Source of the DNA: a virus | Virus record (IMG/VR): IMGVR_UViG_3300010299_000025 | Location: 1 to 33,899 of that record | Length of the DNA stretch: 33,899 bases | Reading direction: 5' to 3' (one strand) | Part shown: in pieces, positions 25,396 through 30,453 of the stretch | Layout: each line of letters starts with the position of its first letter | How positions within the stretch are numbered: the first letter of the stretch is position 1 | Translations under genes and position numbers: made by a program | Notes under the pieces: generated by a model | The model's database searches: none | The model's input: only the letters and a program-made list of their open reading frames with translations | Told to the model about the DNA's origin: nothing

Positions 25396-26250
25396 ATGTT
25401 TGGAACTTACTTTTATAATAAAATAATTACAAAACACGTTGTAGCATTTGGCACGTTATTTAATAATATATCGATTAAAAAGCAAGATCAATCTGAAAAT
25501 GATCTTTCTATTTTTAAAGTTCCAATTTCTTACGGACCAGTACAAAAATTTCTAGCAAGGATTGAACAAGATCCAAATGCAAGTAGAAAGATTGCAACAA
25601 CCTTGCCAAGAATGTCTTTCGAAATGGTTTCTATTGATTACGATGGAACTAGAAAATCTTCTGTAATTCAAAAATTCAAAACAGCATCGGCAACTGATAG
25701 TACTGATATTAAAAATGTTTTTGTGCCGACTCCGTATAATATTCAATTTGAGTTGAATATTATGTCAAAGCTTCAAGATGATGTACTTCAGATCATAGAA
25801 CAAATACTACCATTTTTTCAACCATCTTTCAATCTTTCAATTAATTTTATTCCTCAAATTAATGAAATTAAAGATGTTCCAATAATATTAAATAGAATTA
25901 ATTTTAGAGATAATTACGAAGAAGATTTCAGAACTAGAAAGATTATAAATTATACATTAACTTTTACATTAAAAACATACTTATATAGTGAAATTCCATC
26001 AGATCAAGATGGTCTAATTAAAAAGGTTCAGGTCGATTATGCAACTGATGCATTGAGGAGTGCTAAGAGAGAAATTAGATACACATCAACTCCAAAAGCT
26101 CTTGAAGACTATAACGATGATGGTCAGATAAACTCTCTTGACGATCCATTTATTGAAATTGGAGATGATTTCGGATTCAACAGAGATCTACAAGAATTCT
26201 CAGACTTTAAAACTTACAGTCCAAATCAAGGAATTGATGTTGATGTATGA
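25396..26250 (+). CDS. gp15: Tail sheath stabiliser and terminator gp15
   Basis: The 284-residue product (T4 gp15 is 272 aa) starts MFGTYFYNKIITKHVVAFGT and has FKVPISYGPVQKFLARIEQD at about 41-60, typical of gp15. In T4, a gp15 hexamer caps the sheath and tube and joins the tail to the neck. Residues 238-249 spell DYNDDGQINSLD, which matches a dockerin-type or EF-hand calcium loop (acidic or amide side chains at loop positions 1, 3, 5 and 12, Gly at 6, Ile at 8). The segment just after it, FIEIGDDFGF, is also acidic. An AGAGG ribosome binding site lies eight bases before the ATG. The stop overlaps the gp16 start by four bases. Confidence 0.9.
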   Translation: MFGTYFYNKIITKHVVAFGTLFNNISIKKQDQSENDLSIFKVPISYGPVQKFLARIEQDPNASRKIATTLPRMSFEMVSIDYDGTRKSSVIQKFKTASATDSTDIKNVFVPTPYNIQFELNIMSKLQDDVLQIIEQILPFFQPSFNLSINFIPQINEIKDVPIILNRINFRDNYEEDFRTRKIINYTLTFTLKTYLYSEIPSDQDGLIKKVQVDYATDALRSAKREIRYTSTPKALEDYNDDGQINSLDDPFIEIGDDFGFNRDLQEFSDFKTYSPNQGIDVDV

Positions 26251-26696
26251 GTATGATGGAAAAAAAGTATGAAGGATTAGAAAAAGCTTTAAATATCAAA
26301 ACTGATATTGATAAAGCTATTGATACAGAAGTAGTATCAAATGAAATTGTAGATGTTAATCCTGATGAAAAAGAATCTAATGATCCAGAAAAAGATTATG
26401 AATATACTAGAGAAAATCTTTATAAGTTAATAGATAGAGGTCAAGAGGCAATTGAAGGAATTCTTGAATTAGCACAGGAATCTGAACATCCAAGAGCGTT
26501 TGAAGTTGCTGGTCAGTTAATTAAATCTGTTGGAGACGTTACAGATAAGTTATTAGATCTTCAGAAGAAGATGAAGGATTTAGATGCTCCAAATAAAAAA
26601 GGAAACACAACAGTAAATAATGCACTTTTTGTTGGATCTACAGCAGAATTATCTAAACTTTTAAAACAAGGTCTTCTAAATAATAAAGAAGAATAA
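26247..26696 (+). CDS. gp16: Terminase small subunit gp16
   Basis: The 149-residue product fits gp16 of T4-like phages (T4: 164 aa). It has an acidic N-terminal part and a central helical region, YTRENLYKLIDRGQEAIEGI at about 51-70 followed by AFEVAGQLIKSVGDVTDKLLDLQKKM, the family's oligomerisation coiled coil, then a tail with NNALFVGSTAELSKLLKQG. In T4, gp16 forms rings that recognise concatemeric DNA and stimulate the gp17 ATPase and cutting. ATG at 26247 overlaps the gp15 stop (ATGA); the methionine codons two and three codons later are alternatives. Unusually, the large subunit gp17 does not follow; three other genes lie between. Confidence 0.87.
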   Translation: MSMMEKKYEGLEKALNIKTDIDKAIDTEVVSNEIVDVNPDEKESNDPEKDYEYTRENLYKLIDRGQEAIEGILELAQESEHPRAFEVAGQLIKSVGDVTDKLLDLQKKMKDLDAPNKKGNTTVNNALFVGSTAELSKLLKQGLLNNKEE

Positions 26697-26705
26697 TCTT
26701 AACTC

Positions 26706-27734
26706 ATGAAATCACTTAATTTAAATGAGGAGGGACTACGTGATTGGTTTGGAAAGTCCAAATCTAAAGATGGTAAAAAAGGTTGGGTTAATGTTGTAAC
26801 AGGTGATTCTTGTGCAAGTGACAAGCCTGGTGAGGGCATTCCTAAGTGCGTATCTTCTGAAAAAAGAAATAGTATGTCAAAGAAAGAGAGACTTGCTGCA
26901 GCTGCTGCAAAAAGAAGAGAAGATCCAAGACAACAAGAAAAATCTGGAGCATCTTCTCCAACGATGGTAAAAACCGACAGAGAAACTAGGAAAGAAGAAA
27001 TGGACACAAGAAGAGCACCAGCAGAATTAGTTGCTAGATTGAGTGCCAGAAGAGAAGGAGAGATGGCAAAAGATGGTCCTAACAAACCAGCATATGATGC
27101 TAAGCAAAGACTTCTTGCTAAAACAAAAGCAAAAAGAATGAAAAATAAAGAATTAGAGTTAGAAGAAGCAAAAGATAAAAAAGGAAAGGGAAGTGGTAAA
27201 AAAGATGCTTGCTATAGTAAAGTAAAATCACGTTACAGCGTTTGGCCATCTGCTTATGCATCTGGAGCATTAGTAAAATGTAGAAAGGTAGGTGCAAAAA
27301 ATTGGGGAAATAAGTCTGAGTCTGCAGAAGCTAATGCTAAAATGTTAGCAGGTGAAAGATATTGTGATCTCTGCCAAAAGATGGAAAAAAGAGATGAGTG
27401 TATGTATGGTCCTAAAATGTGGGATAAGCATTCAAGAGGAATTAGTGAAGATTGTGTACCAGAACAAAAAACTTTTGATCAATTCATTTTAGAATCTGCT
27501 GCTTGGACAAGAAAAGAAGGACAGAATCCTGAGGGTGGACTCAATGACGCAGGACGTAAGTCTGCCAAAGCAGATGGACATAACTTAAAACGACCTTCAA
27601 AGAAAGTTGGTAATAAGAGAAGAGATTCATTCTGCAAAAGAATGAAAGGTATGAAGGAGAAACTCACTTCTGCCAAAACTGCTAATGATCCAGATAGCAG
27701 AATCAACAAAAGTTTAAGAGCTTGGAATTGCTGA
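26706..27734 (+). CDS. Basic, cysteine-containing multidomain protein between terminase genes (342 aa; DUF5872/DUF6321-like modules)
   Basis: Three basic modules follow one another. Module 1 (about 16-91) has GKKGWVNVVTGDSCASDKPG, then EGIPKCVSS and a Lys/Arg-rich helix, resembling what I know as DUF5872-type sequences. Module 2 (about 166-250) has KDACYSKVKSRYSVWPSAYA and later CDLC (220-223), C232 and C250, possibly a metal site. Module 3 (about 265-342) has AWTRKEGQNPEGGLNDAGRK and ends DPDSRINKSLRAWNC, resembling DUF6321. Between them lie LELEEA (150-155) and KTFDQFILES (255-264). The latter resembles the T4 capsid-targeting and gp21-cleavage signal, which normally stands at an N-terminus. 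No enzymatic motif is recognised. The high charge suggests DNA binding, and the cleavage-like sites suggest a protein packed into the prohead and processed; both are inference. The ATG follows gp16 by nine bases. Confidence 0.8.
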   Translation: MKSLNLNEEGLRDWFGKSKSKDGKKGWVNVVTGDSCASDKPGEGIPKCVSSEKRNSMSKKERLAAAAAKRREDPRQQEKSGASSPTMVKTDRETRKEEMDTRRAPAELVARLSARREGEMAKDGPNKPAYDAKQRLLAKTKAKRMKNKELELEEAKDKKGKGSGKKDACYSKVKSRYSVWPSAYASGALVKCRKVGAKNWGNKSESAEANAKMLAGERYCDLCQKMEKRDECMYGPKMWDKHSRGISEDCVPEQKTFDQFILESAAWTRKEGQNPEGGLNDAGRKSAKADGHNLKRPSKKVGNKRRDSFCKRMKGMKEKLTSAKTANDPDSRINKSLRAWNC

Positions 27735-27735
27735 T

Positions 27736-28041
27736 ATGAAAAGTTTTCAAGAATTTCTTTCCGAAGGAGTCACTATTCAAGGTGACTTCAATGGAAATAT
27801 GTACATAGGTCAGGAACAAACACAACAGCAGGAGACTTATTCTGCTGATATTGTTTGGGAAGGCAAGTTATACAGATTGGAAATGGAAGGTGAAATGATT
27901 CCCAAAAATAAATTAGCAGAGCAAATTCAGGGTGAATATCCTGGAGCAATTGTTCATCAAGTTTATCCTGGTGAAAATTCATCATCTAGAATTAAAAGTG
28001 CTAAGAGATATCAACCAGAAAGATTGCAATGGAGTGACTGA
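27736..28041 (+). CDS. Candidate internal head protein with capsid-targeting-like N-terminus (101 aa)
   Basis: The product starts MKSFQEFLSEG. From memory, T4 internal head proteins carry a ten-residue capsid-targeting sequence of the form MKTYQEFIAE, cut after the last E by the prohead protease gp21, whose sites have the form (L/I)-x-E. Here M-K-S-F-Q-E-F-L-S-E matches it at six positions exactly and at the other four conservatively, and L8-S9-E10 fits the cleavage rule. The mature part would be about 91 residues: a Gln-rich stretch, a compact domain (YSADIVWEGKLYRLEMEGEM, then IPKNKLAEQIQGEYPGAIVH) and a basic tail with SRIKSAKRYQPERLQ. No known domain is recognised. The ATG comes one base after the previous stop and the next gene starts two bases after its own. 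Confidence 0.75.
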   Translation: MKSFQEFLSEGVTIQGDFNGNMYIGQEQTQQQETYSADIVWEGKLYRLEMEGEMIPKNKLAEQIQGEYPGAIVHQVYPGENSSSRIKSAKRYQPERLQWSD

Positions 28042-28043
28042 AT

Positions 28044-28799
28044 ATGCCATTTAAAAATTACTTATGGGACGAGGCATGGGAACTCAATGTTTCTCGTGGT
28101 AAAGTTCGTGGTGCATTTCACATCATAAAGTTTGGTAATAATGATGACATTGATGGTTCATTAGAGACCATCTGGGATGGTGGTGGTCTTTATACATACC
28201 TAACTTCTGCAGGAGTTTTAACAGTTACAAGTACAGATAGTGATGATTCAGAATCTGGAACTGGTGCAAGAACTGTGACTGTTGAAGGTCTTGACTCCGA
28301 TTTTAATCAAGTTTCAGAAACTTTAACTGTTGGTGGTTCTGCAGGAACTGTAGAATTCTATAGAGTATTTCGTGCATTTGTTGCATCTTCTGGTTCAACT
28401 GGAAGTAATGAAGGAACTATTAGTATAAATCAAGGTGCAACAAATCTTGCACAAATTCGTACTGTAGGTTCTCCAAGTTCAAGTGGACTTGGACAGACCT
28501 TTATGGCATTATATACAGTCCCTGCTGGATACACTGGATATATCTATCAATTTGACGTATCAACTGCGAAAGCGGATGGTGATGTTTACTTAATGAAAAG
28601 ACTTCATAATCCAAATGATGGTGCATGGAGAGCACAGGACACGATTCATACCAATGTAAATAGTGTTGAGAGAGAATATAAATTTCCAATCAAAATTCAA
28701 GAGAAAGCAGATATTGAAGTAAGGGCATTATCTCCCACTAATAACATGAAGTGTGCTGCAACTTTTTGTATTCTATTAGTTCAAAATAACGATACTTGA
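28044..28799 (+). CDS. Beta-rich virion protein candidate widespread in marine phages (251 aa)
   Basis: The 251-residue product has an N-terminal block with FHIIKFGNNDDIDGSLETIW and DGGGLYTYL, then a run of beta-prone Ser/Thr/Gly-rich sequence containing SGTGARTVTVEGLDSDF and FYRVFRAFV, and a C-terminal part with YTVPAGYTGYIYQFDVSTAK. I recognise this arrangement (FGxN.DID...ETIWDGGG; GTGA..V.V.GLD; F.RVFRA) from many marine phages of different types, where it is usually annotated as structural or unknown. A capsid decoration or fibre role is plausible, not shown. There is no signal peptide or membrane segment. Composition is less AT-rich than the baseplate genes (21 of 60 bases G or C at 28081-28140). 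It lies between a possible internal head protein and the large terminase. Confidence 0.75.
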   Translation: MPFKNYLWDEAWELNVSRGKVRGAFHIIKFGNNDDIDGSLETIWDGGGLYTYLTSAGVLTVTSTDSDDSESGTGARTVTVEGLDSDFNQVSETLTVGGSAGTVEFYRVFRAFVASSGSTGSNEGTISINQGATNLAQIRTVGSPSSSGLGQTFMALYTVPAGYTGYIYQFDVSTAKADGDVYLMKRLHNPNDGAWRAQDTIHTNVNSVEREYKFPIKIQEKADIEVRALSPTNNMKCAATFCILLVQNNDT

Positions 28800-28806
28800 T
28801 TTTAAT

Positions 28807-30453
28807 ATGCCAGATAATATATACCTAGGTAATCCTTTATTAAAAAAAGCTAATACTCCAATTGAATTTAGTGAAGATCAAATTATTGAATTCATTAAAT
28901 GTAAAGAGGATCCAGTTTATTTCGCAAAAGAATATATTAAAATTGTAAACGTAGATAGGGGATTGATTCCCTTTGAAATGTATGATTTTCAAACAAAGTT
29001 AATTGATAACTTTCATAAGCATAGATTTAATATATGTAAAATGCCAAGACAGAGTGGTAAAAGTACCACTGTAGTTTCATATCTTTTACATTATGCACTT
29101 TTCAATGATAATTCAAATATTGCAATTCTTGCTAACAAAGCATCTACAGCAAGAGATCTTTTAGGTAGATTACAAACTGCTTATGAAAATTTACCGAAGT
29201 GGTTGCAACAGGGAGTTCTTGCCTGGAACAGGGGATCTTTAGAAATTGAGAATGGATCTAAGATTGTAGCAGCATCAACATCAGCATCTGCTGTTCGTGG
29301 TGGATCTTATAATATAATATTTTTGGACGAATTTGCATTCATCCCAAATCATCTTGCAGATCAGTTTTTTGCATCTGTATATCCTACAATTTCTTCTGGT
29401 AAATCAACTAAAGTAATTATGGTTTCTACCCCCCACGGTATGAACCATTTTTATCGTTATTGGCACGACGCTGAAAGAGGAAAAAATAAGTATGTGGCAA
29501 CTGAGGTTCATTGGACTGAAGTTCCTGGAAGAGACGATAAATGGAGAGAAGATACAATTGCAAACACTTCTGAACAACAATTCAGAGTTGAGTTTGAATG
29601 TGAGTTCTTAGGTTCAGTAGATACTCTTATTGCTCCTAGTAAGTTAAGGAGTATGGTATATGATGATCCAATTAATAGAAATGCAGGTTTAGATATATAC
29701 GAAAATCCAATATCTGGTAATGATTACTTAATTACTGTCGATGTAGCAAGAGGAGTTGAAATTGACTATTCAGCATTTGTAGTTTTTGACATATCGACTT
29801 TTCCTCATAAGGTAGTTGCAAAATATAGAAATAATGAAATAAAACCAATGATATATCCATCAGTTATACATCAGGTTGCGAAGTCATTTAATAATGCATT
29901 TATATTGTGTGAGGTTAATGATGTTGGAGATCAGGTAGCAAGCATTTTACAATATGATTTAGAGTATGAGAATCTTCTTATGTGCTCAATGCGTGGAAGA
30001 GCTGGTCAATTAGTTGGTCAGGGATTTTCCGGTAAGAAGACTCAACTTGGAGTTAAAATGTCTAAAGTTGTTAAAAAGGTAGGTTGCTTAAATTTAAAAA
30101 CAATAATAGAAGAAGATAAACTTATATTCAATGATTATGAAATTATTTCAGAACTAACTACATTCATTCAAAAATCAAACTCTTTTGAAGCTGAAGAAGG
30201 ATGTAATGATGACTTAGCAATGTGCCTTGTAATTTATGCTTGGTTGGTTGCTCAAGATTATTTTAAAGAACTAACTGAACAAGATGTAAGAAAGAGATTA
30301 TATGAAGAGCAAAAAAATCAAATTGAGCAAGATATGTCCCCCTTTGGATTTATTATAGACGGAAGAGAATCTACATCAATAGTAGATAAAGAAGGTGATG
30401 TTTGGCAACTAGATGAATACGGAGATAGATCATATATGTGGGAGTATAGATAA
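28807..30453 (+). CDS. gp17: Terminase large subunit gp17 (packaging ATPase and nuclease)
   Basis: The 548-residue product (T4 gp17: 610 aa) has an N-terminal ATPase and a C-terminal RNase H-like nuclease. The Walker A motif is RQSGKST at 81-87, and Walker B is IIFLDE at 170-175 with D174 and the catalytic E175, followed by VSTPHG, a coupling-type motif. In the nuclease half, the expected acidic triad is visible as D312 (ITVDVARG), E369 (CEVND) and D468 or D469 (CNDDLAMCL). The enzyme pumps DNA into the prohead through the portal and cuts the concatemer at headful. All key residues are present, so it looks functional. It begins seven bases after the 251-aa gene, with no clear Shine-Dalgarno sequence. 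Confidence 0.96.
   Translation: MPDNIYLGNPLLKKANTPIEFSEDQIIEFIKCKEDPVYFAKEYIKIVNVDRGLIPFEMYDFQTKLIDNFHKHRFNICKMPRQSGKSTTVVSYLLHYALFNDNSNIAILANKASTARDLLGRLQTAYENLPKWLQQGVLAWNRGSLEIENGSKIVAASTSASAVRGGSYNIIFLDEFAFIPNHLADQFFASVYPTISSGKSTKVIMVSTPHGMNHFYRYWHDAERGKNKYVATEVHWTEVPGRDDKWREDTIANTSEQQFRVEFECEFLGSVDTLIAPSKLRSMVYDDPINRNAGLDIYENPISGNDYLITVDVARGVEIDYSAFVVFDISTFPHKVVAKYRNNEIKPMIYPSVIHQVAKSFNNAFILCEVNDVGDQVASILQYDLEYENLLMCSMRGRAGQLVGQGFSGKKTQLGVKMSKVVKKVGCLNLKTIIEEDKLIFNDYEIISELTTFIQKSNSFEAEEGCNDDLAMCLVIYAWLVAQDYFKELTEQDVRKRLYEEQKNQIEQDMSPFGFIIDGRESTSIVDKEGDVWQLDEYGDRSYMWEYR

Follow-up and report, generated by a model that had tools for sequence, protein, structure and literature searches.

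The window (the whole stretch of DNA analysed, 33,899 nucleotides) is a 33.9-kb fragment of a T4-like cyanophage that encodes tail, neck, terminase, sheath and tube genes, with the Synechococcus phage S-SKS1 as the closest isolate in the region. Flanked by terS and terL is a gene for a 101-aa protein, which starts 1 base past a DUF6321 gene and ends 2 bases ahead of the gene for a 251-aa protein. A preliminary description, made from the letters alone, had noticed that its N terminus resembles the capsid-targeting sequence of T4 internal proteins and had taken it for an undescribed internal head protein that is delivered with the genome and acts against host restriction. The question raised by this locus is whether the leader is a T4-type head-targeting signal and, if so, what kind of protein it carries. 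The features of the locus are as follows.

26247 to 26696, + strand: terminase small subunit, gp16 (phrog_445, E = 1e-52)
26706 to 27734, + strand: 342-aa basic protein (pI 9.8) with a C-terminal DUF6321 segment (Pfam PF19846, E = 5e-17)
27468 to 27497, + strand: internal motif copy KTFDQFILES in the 342-aa DUF6321 protein (motif scan; E[GSA]/AAWT in relatives)
27736 to 28041, + strand: 101-aa protein, PHROG 1742 (ORF; phrog_1742, E = 8e-39; between terS and terL)
27736 to 27765, + strand: capsid-targeting-like leader MKSFQEFLSE (comparison with T4 IPII/IPIII; conservation in 61/61 homologues; T4 determinants, PMC9026906)
27765/27766, + strand: predicted gp21 cut past E10 of the 101-aa protein
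27835 to 27969, + strand: beta-beta-alpha-beta domain, residues 34-78 of the 101-aa protein (AlphaFold2, profile matches, BFVD matches)
28044 to 28799, + strand: 251-aa protein (phrog_8198; orthologous to the virion protein ORF31 of S-SCSM1)
28807 to 30453, + strand: terminase large subunit, gp17 (Terminase_6N, E = 4e-24)

Comparison of the leader with T4 signals and cleavage sites

The 101-aa ORF starts with MKSFQEFLSEG at precisely the position reported earlier, 27736-27768 on the + strand. The T4 signal had been given as MKTYQEFIAE, which is correct, since IPII and IPIII from NC_000866 both translate as MKTYQEFIAEA; the four differences (S/T at residue 3, F/Y at 4, L/I at 8 and S/A at 9) are conservative, as had been said. 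Amber-suppressor work on the T4 IPIII leader assigned residues 4 and 7 to targeting and residues 8 and 10 to processing (PMC9026906), and MKSFQEFLSE has the aromatic residues at 4 and 7, the L or I at 8 and the E at 10 of a T4-type leader.

Using a strict motif, M[KR]x[FY]xxF[ILMV]xE, 0 to 0.05 occurrences per phage genome were expected from shuffled ORFs, and three were observed in T4 and zero to two in each of the scanned cyanophages. A looser motif was also scanned, of which the window holds two copies against 0.05 expected, the second being within the preceding protein. A chance match to the T4 tag was ruled out by the shuffles, by reversed patterns and by a spacing-shuffled scan of the whole IMG/VR collection. 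The strict-tag starts in T4 are those of IPII, IPIII and gp61.1; the last of these (NC_000866.4:18966-19130, - strand) is a hypothetical protein of 54 aa that starts MKTFKEFIKE and may be an uncharacterised internal protein.

The gp21 cleavage motif is L/I-x-E (PMC9026906). No gp21 gene is present in the 33,899-nt window, as the fragment stops short of it; gp21 is annotated in the relatives S-SKS1, S-SCSM1 and Syn9, and none of the grounds named earlier for abandoning the proposal, a genome devoid of such a protease among them, was encountered. The motif scan of T4 also found the motif in gp23, where it ends at E65, and the published gp23 propeptide is 65 residues long (PMC9026906). Cyanophage gp23 at the equivalent place reads SFLAE/A in S-SCSM1, EFLSE/A in S-SKS1 and SFLNE/A in S-CAM9, with different sites in S-SZBM1 (ILTE/A) and S-PM2 (MLNE/V), all of these cut positions being inferred by sequence comparison. 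The earlier assignment of LSE as a gp21-type site is supported by its match to the gp23 FLxE/A of relatives and by the residue classes at determinants 8 and 10, which are kept in 61 of 61 homologues. The FxxFLxE/A context of the T4 site E65/A66 is like the leader of the 101-aa protein, although in gp23 it closes a 65-residue propeptide belonging to the capsid shell protein.

Conservation of the leader within PHROG 1742

The 101-aa protein matches PHROG 1742 near full length (profile positions 1-106 of 108, E = 8e-39); it was therefore already catalogued when it was called undescribed, a term that stands only insofar as the family has no assigned function. Matches to the protein were found in 139 phage records, all of them from cyanophages, with at least 80% of the query covered in 135, and the family profile found no match in Syn9, S-PM2, P-SSM2, P-SSM4, S-SM2, HTVC008M, T4 or KVP40. 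In an alignment of 61 homologues, which included the divergent sequences of S-RIM2, S-RIM8, S-H38, S-B43 and S-T4, K2, F7 and E10 were invariant (61/61), residue 4 was F or Y and residue 8 was L, I or M (M in three), and positions 3, 5, 6 and 9 were variable. The leader is thus universal in the family, the outcome that the preliminary description had looked for, and in S-B43 it is retained with the adjoining GDFNG stretch gone. Because the T4 determinants are residues 4, 7, 8 and 10, the leader positions that are held to one residue class are the functional ones.

All 61 homologues descend from one ancestor, and residues 11-20 are conserved too. The codon comparison suggested earlier gave a divided result: pN/pS was lower for codons 2-10 (0.26) than for the remainder of the gene (0.34), but lower still for codons 11-20 (0.17). 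Since residues 11-20 show no less conservation than residues 2-10, the leader is not uniquely constrained, and stronger constraint on it than on the rest of the gene was rejected as a stand-alone proof. The G11 at which virion peptides had been predicted to start is present in the window protein but is atypical, with S11 found in 57 of the 61 family members.

Related leaders on neighbouring and unrelated cyanophage proteins

Among the other proteins of S-SCSM1, Syn9 and P-SSM4, the NMNAT/cytidylyltransferase (PHROG 395; recognised by sequence in Syn9 and P-SSM4) is alone in starting with the strict tag. It has the same leader as the 101-aa protein, MKSFLQFLKEA in S-SCSM1, but is a virion-detected enzyme of approximately 400 aa with no similarity seen beyond the leader. 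Mass spectrometry has detected it in S-SCSM1 and S-SZBM1 virions. The tag, or a sequence close to it, opens all 47 IMG/VR relatives of NMNAT that have an N terminus. In S-SZBM1, the cytidylyltransferase has the motif one residue early (MRFRQFIIEA), and the looser motif occurs four times, at the N termini of this enzyme, of _191 (PHROG 1742) and of the DUF6321 protein S-SZBM1_192, and internally in _194. An unannotated 111-aa ORF in S-SKS1 (HQ633071.1, 72899-73234, - strand), starting MKSFFQFLFESA, resembles the N terminus of NMNAT only.

The second motif copy in the window, KTFDQFILES in the 342-aa protein, lies directly ahead of the conserved AAWT at which the DUF6321 segment starts, and in most relatives the junction before AAWT consists of E followed by G, S or A. 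Past the junction, the C-terminal DUF6321 segment is about 78 aa long and very basic, with a pI of 10.5 (window 27468-27725; loci L182-L261). From its sequence, the E[GSA]/AAWT junction looks like a prohead-protease site that would release a basic peptide. The orthologue of the 342-aa protein in S-SCSM1, ORF29, is annotated as a virion protein. This DUF6321 virion protein (PHROG 727) resembles the 101-aa protein in its beta-beta-alpha-beta domain and in a leader motif that is N-terminal or internal in some phages; it differs in being large, basic, modular and detected in S-SCSM1 virions.

Survey of tagged proteins in IMG/VR

A DNA pattern encoding MK[ST]FxxF[LIMF]xE was run on IMG/VR and was found in at least 120 stretches, with 125 matches listed. 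Among the matches listed, 114 of the 125 open a frame of at least 40 aa and 113 start within 35 codons of the frame's upstream end. T4-like proteins occur at 109 of the 120 loci among these matches, a count that may be inflated by the tagged proteins themselves, and 82 of the 120 listed loci match T4's own proteins of at least 200 aa. A spacing-shuffled control, in which the same bases were given a different spacing, returned 25 stretches from the whole IMG/VR collection, with an ORF of at least 40 aa in 11 to 12 of the 25 and T4-like proteins in six. Once the first 12 residues were removed, the tagged proteins of the first 80 of the at least 120 loci formed 35 clusters, with no similarity detected beyond the tag.

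Pfam searches of the tagged proteins identified a GNAT acetyltransferase, an HD_4 domain and, weakly, a methyltransferase; the carriers are a GNAT acetyltransferase at L352 (4149, + strand), an HD_4 (SpoT-like) hydrolase at L399 (1783, - strand) and a methyltransferase-like protein at L396 (1586, - strand). The carrier at L328, starting MKTFQEFILEA, is a PHROG 727 protein and so belongs to the family of the upstream neighbour of the 101-aa protein. A YHGT motif occurs in two of the tagged proteins (L344, 11047, - strand; L352, 3736, + strand), which are ADP-ribosyltransferase-like by eye; neither has an ADP-ribosyltransferase match in Pfam, and one matches RNA 2'-phosphotransferase weakly. They recall T4 Alt, an injected ADP-ribosyltransferase. 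Tag-starting ORFs were also seen in adjacent pairs, at L331 (3936 and 4695), L352 (3736 and 4149) and L361 (3562 and 1722), which hints that neighbouring tagged ORFs are cargo clusters.

It is conceivable, at slightly below even chances, that MK[ST]FxxF[LI]xE is a general transferable tag, by which dozens of unrelated T4-like phage proteins would enter the head, lose their leaders to gp21 and be injected along with the genome; PHROG 1742 would then be a common cyanophage carrier. The cargo under this proposal, to which the same joint estimate applies, would comprise NMNAT-like enzymes, the GNAT acetyltransferase, the HD_4 hydrolase, the methyltransferase and the ADP-ribosyltransferase-like proteins.

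Body of the 101-aa protein and its record in virion proteomes

AlphaFold2 predicted residues 1-30 to be disordered and residues 34-78 to form a beta-beta-alpha-beta domain (mean pLDDT 68; 78-88 in the domain). By profile, the domain is also found within two DUF6321 proteins, one from S-CAM9 (E = 9e-10) and one from S-SCSM1 (E = 0.0015), and the same two proteins rank among the best viral matches in Foldseek (BFVD). A PDB sequence search with the 101-aa protein gave weak, nonspecific rows only. The top PDB fold rows were T7 gp2/RNA polymerase epsilon-like (Foldseek E = 0.17, Z = 5.1, 2.3 Å over 49 residues) and were not significant, nor was phi29 p6, which ties with T7 gp2 in this ranking; T7 gp2 is an inhibitor of host RNA polymerase and phi29 p6 binds DNA. 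A Pfam match to DUF4840 (E = 0.006) was below the cut-off and was taken as noise. No match was found in PADLOC (defence families) or in NCBIfam.

The predicted mature product has a pI of 4.9, versus 9.0-9.7 for T4 IPI*, IPII* and IPIII*, and thus lacks the basic character of the DNA-associated T4 internal proteins. As the leader is of the T4 type and the product is not basic, the protein is described here as carrying a T4-type head-targeting tag rather than as a T4 internal protein. It is like IPII and IPIII in its small size, in opening with a leader of ten residues, MK-x-[FY]-x-x-F-[LI]-x-E, and in the gp21-type protease of its relatives, and unlike them in its unrelated body, its fixed cyanophage locus and the lack of reports from virion proteomes.

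In the S-SCSM1 virion proteome (45 proteins), with detection read from GenBank "virion protein" notes, the homologue ORF30 stays "hypothetical" and its neighbours ORF29 and ORF31 are virion proteins. Table 1 of the S-SZBM1 virion report (30 proteins) includes _190 and _195 but not the homologue _191. Tryptic peptides of suitable length number two in ORF30 and six in S-SZBM1_191. In T4, each head contains about 360 copies of the internal proteins (PMC9026906). Because suitable peptides are few, these absences oppose a high copy number more than they oppose presence. Of the proposed internal head protein, the targeting leader with its gp21-type site is well supported; presence in the mature virion is so far not supported, the homologue being missing from the GenBank notes of S-SCSM1 and from Table 1 of S-SZBM1.

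Possible roles of the tagged protein

The first ten residues are probably a capsid-targeting sequence of the T4 type that ends in a gp21-type site, judging from the family-wide retention of the determinants, the match to the gp23 site, the virion-verified NMNAT and the recurrence of the leader on unrelated proteins. In the proposed mechanism, the disordered leader would dock the 101-aa protein into the prohead scaffolding core via F4 and F7, and the gp21-type prohead protease would cut past E10 (FLSE/G). Cleavage would free an acidic product of 91 residues, in which a flexible segment is joined to the small beta-beta-alpha-beta domain; this product would remain in the head, probably in few copies.

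The same tag evidence applies if the protein is instead a prohead-core component that is recruited to the scaffold by the tag, aids assembly and is then degraded by the protease or expelled, as with T4 gp67 and gp68. This is a rather unlikely but serious alternative: the homologue was not reported from the mature virions of two phages, in the GenBank notes of one and Table 1 of the other, and the occurrence of its domain in the adjacent virion protein suggests a structural role; however, an ordered domain and conservation in the C-terminal half speak for a stable product, and S-SCSM1 virions still contained detectable gp21 and gp22. It is improbable that the N-terminal peptide docks another virion part, such as the DUF6321 protein or the neck, and resembles T4 through convergence on an amphipathic helix. 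Tail and terminase genes do adjoin the locus and the DUF6321 protein contains a related motif and domain, but unrelated enzymes bear the same peptide, mostly in T4-like phages, and residues 8 and 10, on which protease processing depends, are among the invariant positions.

The role originally proposed, an injected protein blocking a host restriction or defence enzyme, has the T4 delivery tag in its favour. T4 IPI blocks GmrSD (PMC9026906), and IPIII is required on strain ECOR17 (PMC9391042). For the 101-aa protein this role found no support and is judged very unlikely, given the lack of a defence-related family match in PADLOC or NCBIfam, the acidic mature product, the domain in common with a structural neighbour and a family fixed at one locus across cyanophages, whereas T4 internal proteins are variable. 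A chance resemblance preserved through common descent would account for the agreement of 61 sequences, as these are one family and so count as one ancestral event, but it is scarcely credible beside the 35 unrelated clusters bearing the tag (from the first 80 of at least 120 loci) and the clean spacing-shuffled control.

Implications for T4-like phages

For few T4-like phages besides T4 is it known which proteins are injected with the DNA. The tag itself is a T4 discovery and already known; how widely it extends among cyanophages and T4-like phages of metagenomes did not come up in the open-licence literature searched. Virion enzymes of cyanophages, such as NMNAT, had been detected earlier with their route of entry unexplained, and the capsid-targeting reading of the leader suggests a shared route for packing proteins beside the DNA in T4-like phage heads. 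The tag would place PHROG 1742 in head assembly, and a ten-residue tag that is searchable by sequence would point, in abundant viruses, to candidates for injection that can be tested directly.
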